This document shows, piece by piece, positions 32,861 through 48,435 of a stretch of DNA of 51,942 nucleotides. Position 1 is the first letter of the stretch; each line of letters begins with the position of its first letter. The stretch is from Terriglobia bacterium. GTDB taxonomy: Bacteria > Acidobacteriota > Terriglobia > Terriglobales > Acidobacteriaceae. The translations under genes and the position numbers were made by a program. The notes under the pieces are model-generated. The model searched no databases and had not been told where the DNA came from. It saw only the letters and a program-made list of their open reading frames with translations. The DNA is taken from the NCBI GenBank assembly GCA_020073105.1, contig JAIQFW010000020.1, positions 1-51,942 of the forward strand. The letters are read 5' to 3'.

Positions 32861-34314
32861 GAACTCTCTATCGCATCCTGACTGCGGCAGCTTTCCTAGC
32901 GGTGGCCGGATGTTGCATGCCCGGTCAGGCTCGAGCTCAAGGCACGCTGCGGGTCGCGCCCCCTCACGACCTAATGAGCTGCTCCCCTGCGCCGTGCGTG
33001 CTGCCGCCCCTGCAGGTATCGGAAGGAGGGTATTTGGTCAACACTCCATCGGTAGCGGCTGATCCGCTGAATCCCAAGCATCTGGTCCTGGGGGCGAATG
33101 ACTTCAACTGCCTGCAGGCCACCGGGCCCTTGGCGACTTACAGCTCTAGGGACGGAGGAACGACCTGGCAGGGCCCTTTCTGCCTGCCCGAGATCCAGCA
33201 GGGGAGTAAGTTCTTCGTTCCGAGCGTCGATTCAGCGGTCGGGTACGACCGCAACGGCGCGGGGTATGTCGCGGGAGGCTACTTCTACAGGAACGGGGGC
33301 AGCACCACGGGCTTTGTTGCTTTGTCGAAGTCGACCGACGGAGTCACCTGGAGCCAGCCACTTGTAGCACTGAATGTCCACAACAGCCAAACGGCCGACA
33401 GTCGGCTCGTGGTGGACACCAATCCGGGCAGCCCACATATGAACACCTTGTACGTCTCCGCGGTAACGATTGGCCCTCCAGGAGACAACTCAGACAATCA
33501 GGTAGTTGTAGCGCACTCCAATGACGGCGGAGACAGTTGGCAACAATCCACACCTGAACCGGTGCAGAAGTACCCAGCAGCTGACTTTTTTACGAGTATG
33601 ACGATTGGGGCGGACGGCACAGTTTACCTAGCGTGGCTACACTGCATTGGTACCGGCCCGGCAGCATACTGCGCTAACGGCAAAGCTTATATGGTGTTTT
33701 CGAAGTCGAGCGACGGAGGTCACAGTTGGTCTATGCCGCGAGTGATAGCCACGGTCATGATTGGAAACAGTGCCTGCCATTGCGCCTTCGGCGATCTGCC
33801 CAACACGAATAATGTCTCGCTCACCAACTTCCCGACAATCGGCATAGATAACAGCAATGGACCCTACGCTGGGAACCTCTACGTGGTGATGTATTCGTGG
33901 ACAGGCGCATACTTGCGCGTACAAGTTGTCCGCTCCACCGACGGTGGTAACACATGGTCGAAGCCGGTACCAGTTGCCCCGCCGAGCGATACGCACGACC
34001 AATTTTTTCCGTGGCTGTCGGTAAGCCCCACAGGGTTAGTTGGAGTGAGCTGGCTGGACCGCCGTAACGATCCTGCGAACATCAACTACCAGGCCTTTGC
34101 GGCGATCTCCGCCGACGGCGGAAAGAGCTTTCAGCCGAATGTACATCTGACGACGGCGTTTTCGGATCCCAACGTGAACGGTTATGTCAATAACGCCTGG
34201 ATGGGGGACTACACCGGCAACACCTGGGCCGGTTCCAACTTCGTCGCTGCCTGGATGGACAGCAGCAACGGCGTGGACATGCAAGTCATGGTCGGCGGCA
34301 TCCGGCTGAAGTGA
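32857..34314 (+). CDS. Secreted BNR/sialidase-like beta-propeller protein
   Basis: The 485-residue product has a signal peptide with a lipobox-like 'AVAGC' (Cys19), so it may be a lipoprotein. Asp-box motifs recur: 'SSRDGGTTW', 'SKSTDGVTW', 'HSNDGGDSW', 'SSDGGHSW', 'STDGGNTW' and 'SADGGKSF', the six-bladed sialidase fold. The catalytic arginine triad and Glu/Tyr of true sialidases cannot be identified by eye, so enzyme activity is not claimed. It is translationally coupled to the PQQ-like gene. Confidence 0.83.
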   Translation: MRTLYRILTAAAFLAVAGCCMPGQARAQGTLRVAPPHDLMSCSPAPCVLPPLQVSEGGYLVNTPSVAADPLNPKHLVLGANDFNCLQATGPLATYSSRDGGTTWQGPFCLPEIQQGSKFFVPSVDSAVGYDRNGAGYVAGGYFYRNGGSTTGFVALSKSTDGVTWSQPLVALNVHNSQTADSRLVVDTNPGSPHMNTLYVSAVTIGPPGDNSDNQVVVAHSNDGGDSWQQSTPEPVQKYPAADFFTSMTIGADGTVYLAWLHCIGTGPAAYCANGKAYMVFSKSSDGGHSWSMPRVIATVMIGNSACHCAFGDLPNTNNVSLTNFPTIGIDNSNGPYAGNLYVVMYSWTGAYLRVQVVRSTDGGNTWSKPVPVAPPSDTHDQFFPWLSVSPTGLVGVSWLDRRNDPANINYQAFAAISADGGKSFQPNVHLTTAFSDPNVNGYVNNAWMGDYTGNTWAGSNFVAAWMDSSNGVDMQVMVGGIRLK

Positions 34315-43854: not shown

Positions 43855-44259
43855 CTAGGTACCCTCGCGGTTGGCAAGCACCGGAATCTCCCGAAGCTCC
43901 ATCAGCCGCTCGTCGGCTGTAACCAGGGTCAGCTCGAAGACCTTCGCCGTAGCCACCAGGAACCGATCCGCGGGGTCACGGTGGGGAAGTGACAAGCGTG
44001 CTACCTCACGTGCCACTTCGTAGGTGATCGTCGCCTCCTGCAGAGGCAAGGCTCGCAACGCCCGTGGAATCCACGTCTCAATATCTTCGCCGGGGAGAAC
44101 TCGCTTCTTCTGCCACAACACGATCAGCTCCCAAATGCTGATCGGCGAGAGCCACAGTTCGTTCTCCGGATTCTCGATGGCATCCGCAACGCCTTGTGAA
44201 AGGCGCTCGGGCTCAAGCTCGCTCCACAGCCAGATATGGGTGTCGAGCAGCAACTTCAT
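43855..44259 (-). CDS. vapC: VapC-type PIN-domain toxin (module 2)
   Basis: The 134-residue PIN protein has Asp6 ('MKLLLDTHIWLW'), Glu44 ('ISIWELIVL'), Asp95/Asp98 ('HRDPADRFLVATA') and Asp116 ('LVTADERLM'), at the same positions as module 1, so the two toxins are clearly paralogous types. The ATG at 44259 overlaps the antitoxin stop by ATGA; an upstream in-frame ATG is less likely. Confidence 0.93.
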   Translation of the reverse strand: MKLLLDTHIWLWSELEPERLSQGVADAIENPENELWLSPISIWELIVLWQKKRVLPGEDIETWIPRALRALPLQEATITYEVAREVARLSLPHRDPADRFLVATAKVFELTLVTADERLMELREIPVLANREGT

Positions 44260-44498
44260 GAGCGAAGCACTTCCCAATCGTCTTCATCGCTGGCCGGAGC
44301 AACGATGTCCCCTACAATCCGGGCCGTGCCCCGCATCGATCCGAGCTCACGCTTTGAATGATTCGCAGCCGACGGCGGTCCAACCTCGGCCACCGGCTGC
44401 CCAAAGCGCGTGACCAGCACAGGCTTGCCCGTCTTCCGCACGCGTTCCAGCACCGCTAGGCAGGTAGCCTTGAATTTCGAAATGGCAATCTCTTCCAT
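44256..44498 (-). CDS. Phd/YefM-family antitoxin (module 2)
   Basis: The 80-residue product starts 'MEEIAISKFKATCLAVLERV' and has 'KTGKPVLVTRFGQPVAEVGPP', typical of the antitoxins paired with this kind of PIN toxin. I set the start at the ATG 44498; two further in-frame ATGs lie upstream at 44516 and 44522, but the family N-terminus and the promoter position favour 44498. Predicted autoregulator; see the operator entry. Confidence 0.88.
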   Translation of the reverse strand: MEEIAISKFKATCLAVLERVRKTGKPVLVTRFGQPVAEVGPPSAANHSKRELGSMRGTARIVGDIVAPASDEDDWEVLRS

Positions 44499-44506
44499 CC
44501 GTCTAG

Positions 44507-44537
44507 ATGATACCATGGTCAATGACCATGGTCAAAT
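44507..44537 (-). promoter_or_regulatory. Promoter inside two tandem palindromes, antitoxin module 2
   Basis: On the minus strand TTGACC (44535-44530) and TATCAT (44512-44507) are 17 bp apart, a near-consensus promoter. Two direct copies of ACCATGGTCAA, each carrying the palindrome ACCATGGT (44512-44519 and 44525-44532), cover the spacer and both hexamers. Predicted transcription start is within about 2 bp of the antitoxin ATG. Confidence 0.72.
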
Positions 44538-44681
44538 AATTCTCAACCCGGCGTAAGGATTACCTGCAAGAACCACCGGAGTCTCCCCCCCGCCATTGCT
44601 AACTCGCTGATCTACCAAGGTCAGCGGATGGCATCTGCCGTGCGACTTGTGAGACGGGGCAATGGTAGGCAGGATCAGGCT

Positions 44682-45296
44682 ATGAGGGGTTGGCGGTGGG
44701 CGCCAGTGCTGGCCGTGGGGCTGGGAGCAGCGCTGGCTGTGGGGTGTGGGCAGCAACCCGGACCCATTTCATCCGGCGGCACCGCTTCCGTTCAACATCT
44801 TCCCTTTGACCGAGGGTCGGTGCGTGGGGGCATGTCGCCCACCCAAGCCTTCGCTGCGATCGCTATTCCAGCTGGGACTTCACTCATCATCCAATTACCA
44901 GCTCCCTTGTCCAGCGCAAATTCCCGTCCCGGGGATGTCTTTGAAGCGGTCTTGGACGAACCGGTCGTTGTGCAGGATCAGACCATCGCCCCACGCGGAG
45001 CTCTTCTTACCGGAAAAGTCATGGCGGCACAATCTTCCACGCTGACGGAGCCAGGCTACTTGCGACTGACCCTTTCTTCTCTGGTTCTCAATGGCAAGAC
45101 TCTCGAATTGCGCACCTCGAGTATCTTCGCCAAGGGCGCTACGCAGGTGAGGGCCGAGGCGATGAAGCGTCAGCGAGAGGACGCCCCCGGCCAGTTCGCC
45201 GGAGCCGGGGCATCTGCAAGCAGGAACGAAGCTAAGTTTTCCACCGGTCGGCGACTCACCTTCCGTCTCATCGACTCCTTACCGCTGCACGACTGA
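44682..45296 (+). CDS. Putative lipoprotein of unknown function
   Basis: The 204-residue product has a lipoprotein signal peptide with lipobox 'AVGC' (Cys21). A domain of about 90 residues ('IPAGTSLIIQLPAPLSSANS' and 'GDVFEAVLDEPVVVQDQT') resembles the beta-rich region seen in several acidobacterial envelope proteins. The C-terminus is basic. I cannot name a family. The in-frame ATG at 44628 lies 54 bp upstream and would add a non-signal stretch, so 44682 is preferred. It stands alone. Confidence 0.72.
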   Translation: MRGWRWAPVLAVGLGAALAVGCGQQPGPISSGGTASVQHLPFDRGSVRGGMSPTQAFAAIAIPAGTSLIIQLPAPLSSANSRPGDVFEAVLDEPVVVQDQTIAPRGALLTGKVMAAQSSTLTEPGYLRLTLSSLVLNGKTLELRTSSIFAKGATQVRAEAMKRQREDAPGQFAGAGASASRNEAKFSTGRRLTFRLIDSLPLHD

Positions 45297-45520: not shown

Positions 45521-46432
45521 ATGGAACGGCCGGATACGAAGGGTATGGTGTCCGCGTTGAACGCCGTAGTAGAGGTTCGGGCCAAACAACGGTCTTGCGA
45601 CCCGTGCAGTGAGCAACGGTTGCGGGAGTCGCAGCGTATGGAGGCCGTTGGGCGGATGGTGAGCGGGGTCTCCCATGACTTCAACAACCTGCTTACGGGG
45701 ATCGTTCTCTGTTCCGATCTCATCCTTGCCGGCTTGGAAAAAGACAACCGTCTGCGGCGGTATGCGCAGGAGATTCGTGCGGCCGGGGCGCAGGGTGCGG
45801 AACTGATTCAGCAACTGTTGGCAGTGGCACGGGAGCGTGCAGTCGAGGCCCGCGTACTACGGTTCAACGACGTGATCCTGGACACGCGCGACCTGCTAGT
45901 GCGATTGATCGGGGAGAACCTCAAGTTGGTTACAGAACTCGCGACAGATCTGGGGGCCGTGAAGATGGACCCCGCGCAAGCGCGGCAAATCGTGCTGAAC
46001 CTGGTGCTGAATGCGCGGGATGCGATGCCCGATGGCGGACGAGTCACGCTCACCACCCGTAACGGCAACGACCCGGTAATGAGTGTCGAGGGAAGAAGGT
46101 CCACGGGAAGCTCTTGGATCGACTTCGAAGTTTGCGACACCGGTTGCGGAATGGACGCGGACAGGCGTTCCCGGGTCTTCGAACCTTTCTTCACCACCAA
46201 GAAGCCCGGCAAGGGAAGTGGCTTGGGATTGACCACGGTGCAAGACATTGTGAGGCAGAGCGGCGGCAGCATTGAGGTGGAGAGCGAGCCAGGGAAGGGA
46301 ACCAGAGTCATCGTCCACCTTCCGCGGGTGGAAGCGGAAACCAAGCCGGGCAAGACCCGCAGCCCGGCCAACCGGCTCGGCCTGTCTGCAGGGCAGAGAG
46401 TCGAGATCCCAAGAAGAGGAAAACACCTATGA
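45521..46432 (+). CDS. Soluble histidine kinase without a sensor domain
   Basis: The 303-residue protein has no membrane helix and only about 35 residues before the DHp domain. The phospho-acceptor is His52 in 'MVSGVSHDFNNLLTGIVL'. The ATPase domain follows with 'QIVLNLVLNARDAMPDGG', 'CDTGCGMDADRRSRVFEPFF' and 'TTKKPGKGSGLGLTTV'. This is the core of the NtrB/hybrid-kinase type, lacking PAS, GAF or periplasmic input. It must get its signal from a partner. It overlaps the next gene by four bases (ATGA), so the pair is translationally coupled. The Cys-containing N-terminus (Cys26, Cys29) could matter but is not a known motif. Confidence 0.9.
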   Translation: MERPDTKGMVSALNAVVEVRAKQRSCDPCSEQRLRESQRMEAVGRMVSGVSHDFNNLLTGIVLCSDLILAGLEKDNRLRRYAQEIRAAGAQGAELIQQLLAVARERAVEARVLRFNDVILDTRDLLVRLIGENLKLVTELATDLGAVKMDPAQARQIVLNLVLNARDAMPDGGRVTLTTRNGNDPVMSVEGRRSTGSSWIDFEVCDTGCGMDADRRSRVFEPFFTTKKPGKGSGLGLTTVQDIVRQSGGSIEVESEPGKGTRVIVHLPRVEAETKPGKTRSPANRLGLSAGQRVEIPRRGKHL

Positions 46433-47835
46433 CCACGGCTGCGGCGCTGGCGCTCAATCCGCCACAATCGGAACCGGCCAACTTGCTGAACTTGTTGATT
46501 GTGGACGACGAACGTGCGGTGCGCGAGGCTTGCCGGGAAGTCGCTCGGACCCTGGGCTTCAGCGCCTTGGTGGCGGAGTCGGCTGAGCACGCCTACCGGC
46601 TTCTGGAATCGCATGCTATCGACGTGGTGCTGCTCGATCTCAAATTGCCGGGAGTGGGTGGAATGGAGGCGCTGAACCGGATCAAACAGTACCGGAGAGA
46701 CGCCGAGGTGATCGTAGTCACGGGCTGCGGTACGGTTCAGTCGGCAGTGCAGGCTATGAAAAACGGCGCCTACGACTATGTGACCAAGCCCTTCAGTATG
46801 GATGAACTGAAAGTGCTGCTGGAACGGGTGGACACCCACTTGAAACTGAAGAGTGAAAACCGCATGCTGCGCGAACGCATCCGATCCAAACACGGTTTTG
46901 CGGGTATTGTGGGCAGCGCACCGGAAATGGAAAAGCTGTACCGTATGATCGCCAAGGCTGCGCAGAGCAATCATCCGGTGTTGATTTTAGGCGAGAGCGG
47001 AACCGGCAAAGAACTGGTGGCACGTTCGATTCACTTTTCCGGGCCCCTGCGCGACAAGCCGTTTATCCCGGTGGACTGTGGTTCCCTGGTGCCCACGCTG
47101 ATCGAAAGCGAGCTGTTCGGTTATGTGAAGGGGGCCTTCACGGGGGCCGTCCAGGCAAAGGATGGCTTGCTGACCATGGCGGAAGGCGGCACGGTGTTTT
47201 TTGACGAGATCGGGGAGATGCCAGTCGACCTGCAGGCCAAGCTGTTGCGAGCGATTCAGGAAAAAGAGATCCGGCCGGTGGGCAGCAACCGGCGAATCGC
47301 CATCAATGTGAGGGTCCTGGCCGCAACCAATCGTGACCTGGAGCAAGGAGTTTCCCAAGGAACGTTCCGCCGGGACCTGTATTTCCGGCTGAATGTCCTG
47401 AGTCTGAAGATTCCTCCCCTGCGGGAACGGCGGCAGGACATTCCGCTGTTGTCGGGATACTTCCTCGACCGGATGTCGCGCGACTGCGGACGTGAACGCT
47501 TGCTCAGCGACGCCGCAATGAAGCTCTTGCTGGCCTACGATTGGCCTGGCAATGTGCGGGAACTGGAGAACTGCCTGGAGCGTGCCTGTGCCCTGAACAG
47601 TGGTCCGGACATACAGGCTACGGATCTGCCTGGCGCAATAAGCGGAAACGGCCACATGACGGCGAATAAATCCGGCTCGGCCAAGATCGTTCCGATGTCG
47701 GAACTCGAGAAACAAACCATCCTCCATACCATCATGCAGCTGAACGGGGACAAGTTGTTGGCGGCACGGCTGCTGGGGATTGGCAAAACAACCCTCTACC
47801 GCAAACTCAAGGAATACGGTTCCCAAGACTGTTAG
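46429..47835 (+). CDS. NtrC-family sigma-54-dependent response regulator 2
   Basis: The 468-residue protein has a receiver with Asp70 ('[13 protein letters not shown]'), an AAA+ domain with Walker A '[16 protein letters not shown]', the sigma-54 contact loop '[14 protein letters not shown]', and a Fis-like HTH at the end ('[17 protein letters not shown]'). It should be phosphorylated by the kinase encoded just upstream. Two such NtrC-type regulators lie within 10 kb, each with its own kinase. Target promoters are not visible in the window. Confidence 0.95.
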
Positions 47836-47946: not shown

Positions 47947-48435
47947 ATGATTCTGCTGATTACGCCTCTGGCAAAAGCCCAAGATTGTGTACTGGCGATC
48001 GAGGGAGCGACCAGCGAAGCAGTGAGGGTGTGTAGCGCGCTCCATCTCGCGATTGCCGAATTGCAGGCACAGACATTCACGGCGGTGGTTTTTGATCAAC
48101 TCTTGTTGGATGCTGAACACGATGAAGGTGAAGTTGTCCTCCAGCATCTCGGATCGGCGGTACCGGTCTATTTGAACTTTGCGGTGAGCGGAACGGCGCG
48201 CGTGATTCGCGAGCTAAAATCAGCTCTGCAACGCAGAGGGCGCGAAGTACTTGCCGCAAGACGAGACGCAGAGCAGGCTTTACATCACGAGCTAAGAGAT
48301 GCGGTTACCGCTGCGCTGCTCTCCTGCCAGATGGCGCTGCAAGTACCAAACCTGCCTCCCTTGGCAGAGGACAAGATGCAGGCTGCAGTAGCTCTGGTGC
48401 GGGAGATGAGCATGAAGCTGGGCGGGACCGCTTAA
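47947..48435 (+). CDS. Small receiver-like/DHp-like protein of unknown function
   Basis: The 162-residue product has no signal peptide or membrane helix. Residues 1-95 show alternating strands and helices: 'MILLITPLAKAQDCVLAI', then 'FTAVVFDQLLLD' with Asp50 where a receiver carries its phospho-acceptor, then 'VPVYLNFAVSGTARVIRELK'. The usual conserved Lys of receivers is missing. Residues 105-132 ('EQALHHELRDAVTAALLSCQ') look like the first helix of a histidine-kinase DHp domain with His113 or His114. A C-terminal helix follows and no ATPase domain is present. The role is not known. It lies 111 bp after the kinase/NtrC pair and is probably part of the unit. Confidence 0.75.
   Translation: MILLITPLAKAQDCVLAIEGATSEAVRVCSALHLAIAELQAQTFTAVVFDQLLLDAEHDEGEVVLQHLGSAVPVYLNFAVSGTARVIRELKSALQRRGREVLAARRDAEQALHHELRDAVTAALLSCQMALQVPNLPPLAEDKMQAAVALVREMSMKLGGTA

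Follow-up and report, generated by a model that had tools for sequence, protein, structure and literature searches.

A truncated pseudo-receiver joined to a DHp-type hairpin beside NtrC: a possible converted phosphorelay component

What is the role of a small protein that joins a receiver-like part to a DHp-like part, lacks an ATPase domain and is encoded behind a histidine kinase and an NtrC-type activator? Such a protein, called RD' here, is encoded in the window (the whole stretch of 51,942 nucleotides that was analysed). An earlier note on this DNA had described it as a degenerate receiver followed by one phospho-acceptor helix, which might take phosphate from the kinase, act as an HPt-like relay or compete with the regulator. 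The open-reading frame (ATG start, TAA stop) and the kinase/NtrC pair upstream are present as that note claimed, judged by the ORF and Pfam (Table 1).

The kinase frame and the start of the NtrC gene share four overlapping bases, a gap of 111 bases separates the NtrC gene from the RD' gene, and on the 3' side of the latter lies an RNase HII gene on the opposite strand. The Pfam domains of NtrC are a receiver, a sigma-54 AAA+ domain and a Fis-type HTH. The sigma-54 promoter pattern with at most one mismatch has 0 matches in the whole window, as opposed to 2.4 expected by chance, and therefore no target genes are proposed. On the 5' side of the kinase, a frame at 44628-45296 (+) encodes a 222-amino-acid protein with no significant Pfam match, for which a near-operon match is seen in 7/33 relatives. 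A PIN-domain protein (43855-44277, minus strand; PF01850, 2e-13) forms a VapBC-like pair with a Phd/YefM antitoxin-like protein (44256-44522, minus strand), the match of which (E 7e-6) lies under the Pfam cut-off.

Table 1. Positions of the RD' gene, its predicted parts and the two-component genes upstream of it
Feature	Position	Strand	Basis
Plain HisKA-HATPase kinase, no recognised sensor or receiver domain	45521..46432	+	Pfam
NtrC-type sigma-54 activator, receiver intact (DD/D/T/K)	46429..47835	+	Pfam, active residues, tree
RD' gene (truncated pseudo-receiver and degenerate DHp hairpin, 162 aa)	47947..48435	+	ORF and translation, AF2 model, 66 loci
Truncated receiver fold β1-α1-β2-α2-β3-α3-β4, residues 1-82	47947..48192	+	AF2 model, VIA-align
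Asp50 codon, end of β3	48094..48096	+	D in 63/66 loci, E in 3/66
49-residue helix (receiver α5 running into DHp helix 1), residues 83-131	48193..48339	+	Model, profile alignment
His113-His114 codons	48283..48288	+	His114 aligned to the invariant His of relatives
DHp helix 2, residues 138-157	48358..48417	+	Model

Predicted fold of RD'

The AlphaFold2 model of RD', made from a 33-row alignment and, like all the structure models, for a monomer, has a mean pLDDT of 95.6. Structure prediction had been named as a check in the earlier note, and it does give a receiver-like and a DHp-like fold. In the model, α4 and β5 of the receiver are missing, as is the acid pair of β1. Residues 1-102 align by VIA-align with the PmrA receiver 9of7_A (Z 14.1, rmsd 1.8, 99 aligned residues), and decarboxylase chains are also found among the fold matches with Z of about 12. 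RD' thus has the fold of a receiver but falls short of the Pfam cut-off for PF00072. Among the residues of a phosphorylatable receiver (acid pair, Asp, Thr/Ser and Lys) the Asp alone is kept. The description of a degenerate receiver without its Lys is therefore right about Asp50, although it is the whole α4/β5 segment, which would carry the Lys, that is absent. Asp50 is the last residue of β3 in the model and stands immediately ahead of a helix; a helix-capping role might account for its survival when the other active-site residues are gone.

The second part is DHp-like, as had been noticed, but the model predicts a hairpin of two helices rather than a single one, and its homology to DHp domains is indicated both by the model and by a full-length profile match to proteins that match HisKA. 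No HATPase match is found in RD' at E 1, which agrees with the claim that the protein cannot phosphorylate itself. Based on the model, RD' is a truncated pseudo-receiver followed by a DHp-type helical hairpin, with no ATPase domain.

Single-sequence scans of RD' against Pfam and NCBIfam give no significant match, and at E 1 RD' matches neither Response_reg nor Hpt (PF01627). Within the family, 6 of 33 members show weak matches to Response_reg (best E 0.0032) and 2 of 33 match HisKA directly (best E 0.017). A Foldseek search with the model yields weak matches (best E 2.0e-03), the profile of the window's family finds nothing convincing among PDB sequences (best E 0.026), and the 50 structure matches listed for RD', which cover mainly residues 1-103, include no DHp, ChpT or Spo0B chain. 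A match to OKR_DC_1_N (E 0.025) was set aside, since the match to a profile of pseudo-receiver-DHp proteins is far stronger (E 1.6e-11).

Conservation and neighbourhood in the window's bacterial family

In a single-sequence search of 61 genomes, RD' is found in 32 of the 37 belonging to the window's own bacterial family and in none of the 24 outside it. In a profile search of 299 genomes of the window's class, strong matches (E 5.5e-35 or better) are confined to that family, to which all 16 genomes with E 1e-10 or better among 297 of the phylum belong as well. The loci analysed further number 66, namely the window and 33 and 32 from two locus sets. Arg88, Arg96, Leu124, Leu125 and Leu158 are each kept in 62-64 of these, position 78 is Phe or Leu in 59, and positions 5-7 are mostly hydrophobic or small. 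His114 occurs in one locus, the window itself, the site being otherwise mostly Ser, Asn, Ala, Thr or Gly; His113 occurs in three. Because the phospho-accepting His is present in 1/66 loci, the window's family is not a conserved His relay.

The 25 most similar pairs give dN/dS values of 0.00-0.26 for RD', a rough estimate as several dS values exceed 1, and in most pairs listed RD' exceeds the AAA+ part of NtrC (0.03-0.10). The dN/dS of RD' amounts to 0.06-0.26 among the listed pairs with the phospho-Asp of NtrC lost, and to 0.00-0.10 among those with no operon kinase. RD' is under purifying selection, even where the phospho-Asp of NtrC is lost, and its occurrence (32/37 genomes as opposed to 0/24), together with its dN/dS, is beyond chance.

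In 64/66 loci the first two-component gene met upstream on the strand of RD' is NtrC, with 0-777 bases between the end of its frame and the domain. L053, where the contig ends, and L245, which carries a deletion, are the exceptions. In L245 (G293:C27) the entire NtrC gene and the last part of the kinase are deleted, the small protein being left intact, and that genome has no NtrC-like match above 46% identity. The kinase slot, labelled by hand, holds a hybrid kinase in 10 loci, a plain kinase in 25 and a DHp-only frame in 5; none is found in 22, and 4 are cut off. NtrC, not the kinase, is therefore the constant neighbour. The check proposed earlier, whether homologues sit beside the same kinase/NtrC pair, thus comes out positive for NtrC but not for the kinase. 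As evidence against its reading that note had named an unlike structure, or homologues lacking the Asp and His in unrelated places; the structure, the Asp (63/66) and the NtrC linkage speak for the reading, and the lack of the His speaks against it.

The phospho-Asp of NtrC is itself missing from 13 of the 61 readable loci, Asn having replaced it in 11, and RD' is present in every one of the 13. Nine of them retain a plain kinase upstream; L246, L248, L250, L251, L254, L256 and L257, among others, combine such a kinase with the change from Asp to Asn. At L043, L045 and L062 the kinase slot holds frames of 103-137 amino acids consisting of a DHp with its His and no ATPase, so that the kinase appears reduced to its hinge in three genera related by NtrC.

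The linkage is not reciprocal. It had been expected that genomes without RD' would also be without NtrC, but 17 of 20 picked same-family genomes that lack RD' keep NtrC at 58-61% identity, and no trace of RD' was found in the flanks of those RD'-less genomes. Co-divergence was also expected to single out the receiver of NtrC and does not do so. The DHp part correlates with the AAA+ part of NtrC (r 0.55) and with the receiver (r 0.35, partial 0.14), while the pseudo-receiver part shows r values of 0.46 with the receiver, 0.50 with AAA+ and 0.51 with the lid-HTH, with partial correlations of 0.31 with the receiver and 0.38 with the lid-HTH.

His-bearing relatives in sister groups

Weak matches of the class search over the hairpin provided 20 proteins (E 3.7e-7 to 4.2e-4), 15 of which were aligned as a set named A2. 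These proteins of 198-272 amino acids contain a pseudo-receiver and a DHp and no ATPase. At E 0.01, Pfam detects HisKA in 15/15, Response_reg in 2/15, HATPase in 0/15 and Hpt in none. The motif RHExNNPLTGILGN is invariant across the 15 except at x and at one I/V position. The window-family profile matches that of A2 over positions 3-160 on 20-207 (hhalign 97.3%, E 1.6e-11), with Asp50 aligned to the Asp and His114 to the invariant His of L095. The model of L095 (pLDDT 83.2) comprises a complete β1-β5 receiver, a low-confidence linker and the hairpin, and the His-bearing relatives end soon after the hairpin.

A search of the 299 class genomes with the A2 profile gives 57 genomes with a match at E <1e-20 (a row count), none of them in the window's family. 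The His is present in 30/30 of the best-scoring loci, a figure that is biased, as the profile was built from His-bearing sequences. For the relatives in named genomes, the best 80 of 109 were fetched; having been found with His-containing peptides, they were used for the neighbourhood, not for the His. Among these best 80, a kinase lies within 1,200 bases upstream in 55, being a hybrid (DHp-HATPase-receiver) in 54, and NtrC is found upstream in 50. A contig end truncates 4 of the loci without such a kinase, and the other 21 have a different setting, 7 of the latter being labelled as other phyla.

In each of the 54 hybrid kinases the receiver has retained its acid pair, Asp, Thr/Ser and Lys, and its β4 motif is FxTGD or FxSGD. 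Intermediary receivers carry a motif of the FATGUY or FxSGY type (PMC9981736, accessible part), to which the match is partial, the last residue being Asp. By eye, the 10 hybrid kinases of the window's family, the partner of which lacks the His, carry [FYC]x[ST]G[YF], and their receivers look closer to FATGUY than do the receivers of the His-bearing operons. Since the motif also accompanies His-less partners, it is weak evidence for a His partner. Ten of 12 picked sister-group genomes, some of which are incomplete, have no Hpt (PF01627) in an ORF of <300 amino acids, and two of these ten have none at all.

In a tree of NtrC, made by a quick method with SH-aLRT values only and midpoint rooting, the clade of the window's family (70 rows, SH-aLRT 97) stands beside a clade of His-bearing operons (40 rows, 97), with a joint value of 99. 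Of the 40 rows in the sister clade, 39 lie upstream of a relative; a second, paralogous cluster stands apart. Since the NtrC clades are sisters, the two kinds of operon are most likely orthologous, and the sequences are most simply accounted for by a single loss of the phospho-His close to the root of the window's bacterial family. The idea that the His was lost together with the hybrid receiver is contradicted, as His114 is lacking in all of the 10/66 loci that have retained a hybrid kinase.

A second pseudo-receiver-DHp paralogue, with the His, is encoded in the window's own genome (L112:4911-5618, minus strand, contig C18). A kinase, a receiver and NtrC are nearby, and an Hpt match lies in a 281-amino-acid frame on the same contig at 34240. 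The 20 stretches around L112-like matches often include further kinases and receivers, and their wiring is less clear. In this second lineage the His also seems, by eye, to have been lost in L231:8869-9561 (+).

Possible roles and comparison with known systems

Computed are the fold, the family, the linkage, the loss of the His, the relatedness of the operons and the purifying selection. The reading of these that is favoured here, with a probability only just short of even, is that RD' is a converted phosphorelay component: its relatives would be phosphotransferases, and RD' itself probably a His-less, phosphate-independent regulator of NtrC. Judged by their anatomy, the sister-group proteins most likely work as histidine phosphotransferases between the receiver of the hybrid kinase and NtrC, as they have the features that such a protein requires and are encoded behind a hybrid kinase and an orthologous NtrC, in the place where an HPt would be expected. 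In the window's family the phospho-His would then have been lost, the receiver deprived of α4-β5, and the two parts merged through a single long helix. Having no conserved His and no phosphorylatable receiver, proteins of this family are unable to act as phosphotransferases. Since RD' is kept where no kinase is found and where NtrC is unphosphorylatable, its present role is most likely independent of phosphate. RD' would probably dimerize through the DHp hairpin and act by binding a partner. NtrC, being the most constant neighbour, is the candidate for this partner and most likely the one, its oligomeric or active state being set by RD', perhaps in the direction of restraint. Alternatively, RD' may bind the AAA+ part of NtrC or a different partner, and it may also compete with the regulator, as the earlier note suggested. 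Against the favoured reading stand the co-divergence, which does not single out the NtrC receiver (for the DHp part, r 0.55 is reached with AAA+), the 17/20 picked genomes that keep NtrC without RD', and L245, which keeps RD' although NtrC is deleted.

That RD' itself is a working HPt-like relay, with His114 accepting phosphate and passing it to NtrC, is highly improbable. His114 is exactly aligned with the invariant His of the relatives, to which extent the earlier assignment of His113/His114 as phospho-acceptor was well placed, and the NtrC receiver of the window is intact. However, His114 is absent from 65/66 loci (and His113 present in 3/66), and its surroundings are degraded, HELRDAV taking the place of RHExNNPLTG and R-D-A that of the NNP after the His. 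In the closest relatives by NtrC the site is Asn (L032, L031) or Ser (L243), and, as a receiver domain is missing from the window's kinase, no phospho-Asp donor is encoded alongside. His114 of the window is most likely a chance re-appearance, and the suggestion that RD' takes or relays phosphate on His113/114 is not supported; it is the sister-group relatives, not RD', that are best read as HPt-like relays. A decaying relay remnant without a function of its own is also very unlikely. The phospho-His, the Lys, the β1 acids and α4-β5 are indeed gone, and RD' is undetected in most listed genomes of genus g35, but such a remnant is hard to reconcile with the dN/dS of 0.00-0.26 in the 25 pairs listed, with the conservation of Asp50, Arg88, Arg96, Leu124, Leu125 and Leu158 in no fewer than 62/66 loci each, and with the presence of RD' in 32/37 same-family genomes.

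In HisKA phosphatases the fourth residue after the His is Thr or Asn. This bears on the quite unlikely proposal that RD' is a phosphatase or a phospho-NtrC binding protein, the DHp hairpin of which dephosphorylates NtrC, as the corresponding residue is Thr or Asn in 11/66 loci but Ser, Asp or Gly in 45/66, and RD' is kept where NtrC has no Asp (13/61). On the other hand, Glu115, which adjoins the His site, and Thr121 are each kept in 52/66 loci, and the phosphatase activity of DHp domains does not require the His (PMC12632262, accessible part). An inhibitor of the kinase, with the hairpin pairing with the kinase DHp or the pseudo-receiver blocking the kinase, is unlikely too, though it has a precedent in the receiver-like Osp, which inhibits CckA via the transmitter domain (PMC9430884, accessible part), and a kinase with an ATPase is encoded upstream in 35/66 loci. 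Yet no kinase is found upstream in 22/66 and an ATPase-less one in 5/66, with RD' intact, and constrained in the tested pairs.

Among known systems, the role is best matched by ChpT and Spo0B and the layout by LvrB. Spo0B has kept a degenerate ATPase-like domain. A DHp-type hairpin serves as a phosphotransferase between receivers in both ChpT of Caulobacter and Spo0B of Bacillus (PMC9981736, PMC3433190, accessible parts), and the His-bearing relatives occupy the matching place in the operon. In multistep phosphorelays an HPt, or a pseudo-kinase such as ChpT, stands between the receiver of the hybrid kinase and the regulator, and ChpT has a degenerate ATPase-like domain (PMC9981736, accessible part), whereas in the relatives this domain is absent and a pseudo-receiver stands at the N-terminus. 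RD' differs further in being without a conserved His, so that the window's family has neither the DHp His nor the degenerate ATPase-like domain of the ChpT/Spo0B type.

LvrB resembles these proteins in its order of a receiver, a signalling helix and a DHp, and the A2 profile matches LvrB (8vc9) at positions 19-158 with E 8.2e-05; plain receivers score higher, the best being 3luf (E 4.1e-07). The model of a relative fits LvrB poorly overall (rmsd 25.1 over 201), the other structure matches being receivers. In LvrB an ATPase domain is present and the receiver can be phosphorylated (PMC13269768, accessible part), while the pseudo-receiver-DHp proteins described here have neither an ATPase domain nor such a receiver.

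RD' can also be compared with pseudo-receivers and pseudo-histidine kinases, although it joins both losses in one small protein. DivL is reportedly a case of a pseudo-histidine kinase. According to the accessible part of PMC12632262, such proteins have lost phosphotransfer residues and still take part in signalling networks, and the His is missing in 0.9% of sampled HisKA domains. Osp is similar in being a receiver-like protein that acts by binding, but it is a single domain without a DHp part and its target is a kinase (PMC9430884, accessible part). A literature search covering few subscription papers found no report of ATPase-less receiver-DHp proteins or of the RD' operon, and the accessible part of the domain census PMC4558063 does not show a receiver-DHp layout without an ATPase.

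A broader statement, that in Acidobacteriota a distinct class of ATPase-free phosphotransferase, made of a DHp on a pseudo-receiver, replaces HPt between hybrid kinases and NtrC and that one family turned it into a phosphate-free regulator of that sigma-54 activator, is made more tentatively and is, on balance, somewhat doubtful. A DHp hairpin working alone as a relay would, if true, be a simpler solution, and the operons provide ready test pairs. The window's family contains the same small protein with a hybrid, plain, ATPase-less or no found kinase, and with the NtrC receiver intact or broken, and a role of a pseudo-receiver/pseudo-kinase without phosphate becomes testable within one gene neighbourhood. 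If the reading is true, the family would be a natural record of the passage from a phosphorelay to an allosteric switch, kept after the losses of the His, the kinase and the phospho-Asp of NtrC in different lineages.

Short DHp frames were also observed at other loci. L178, L182 and L184-L189 hold frames of 105-136 amino acids that match the DHp model, five of the eight being labelled Pyrinomonadaceae and two having NtrC-type genes nearby on the contig. L099 encodes a 229-amino-acid frame that ends in a DHp with no ATPase, L111 an 83-amino-acid DHp-only frame, and each has an NtrC-type gene on its contig.
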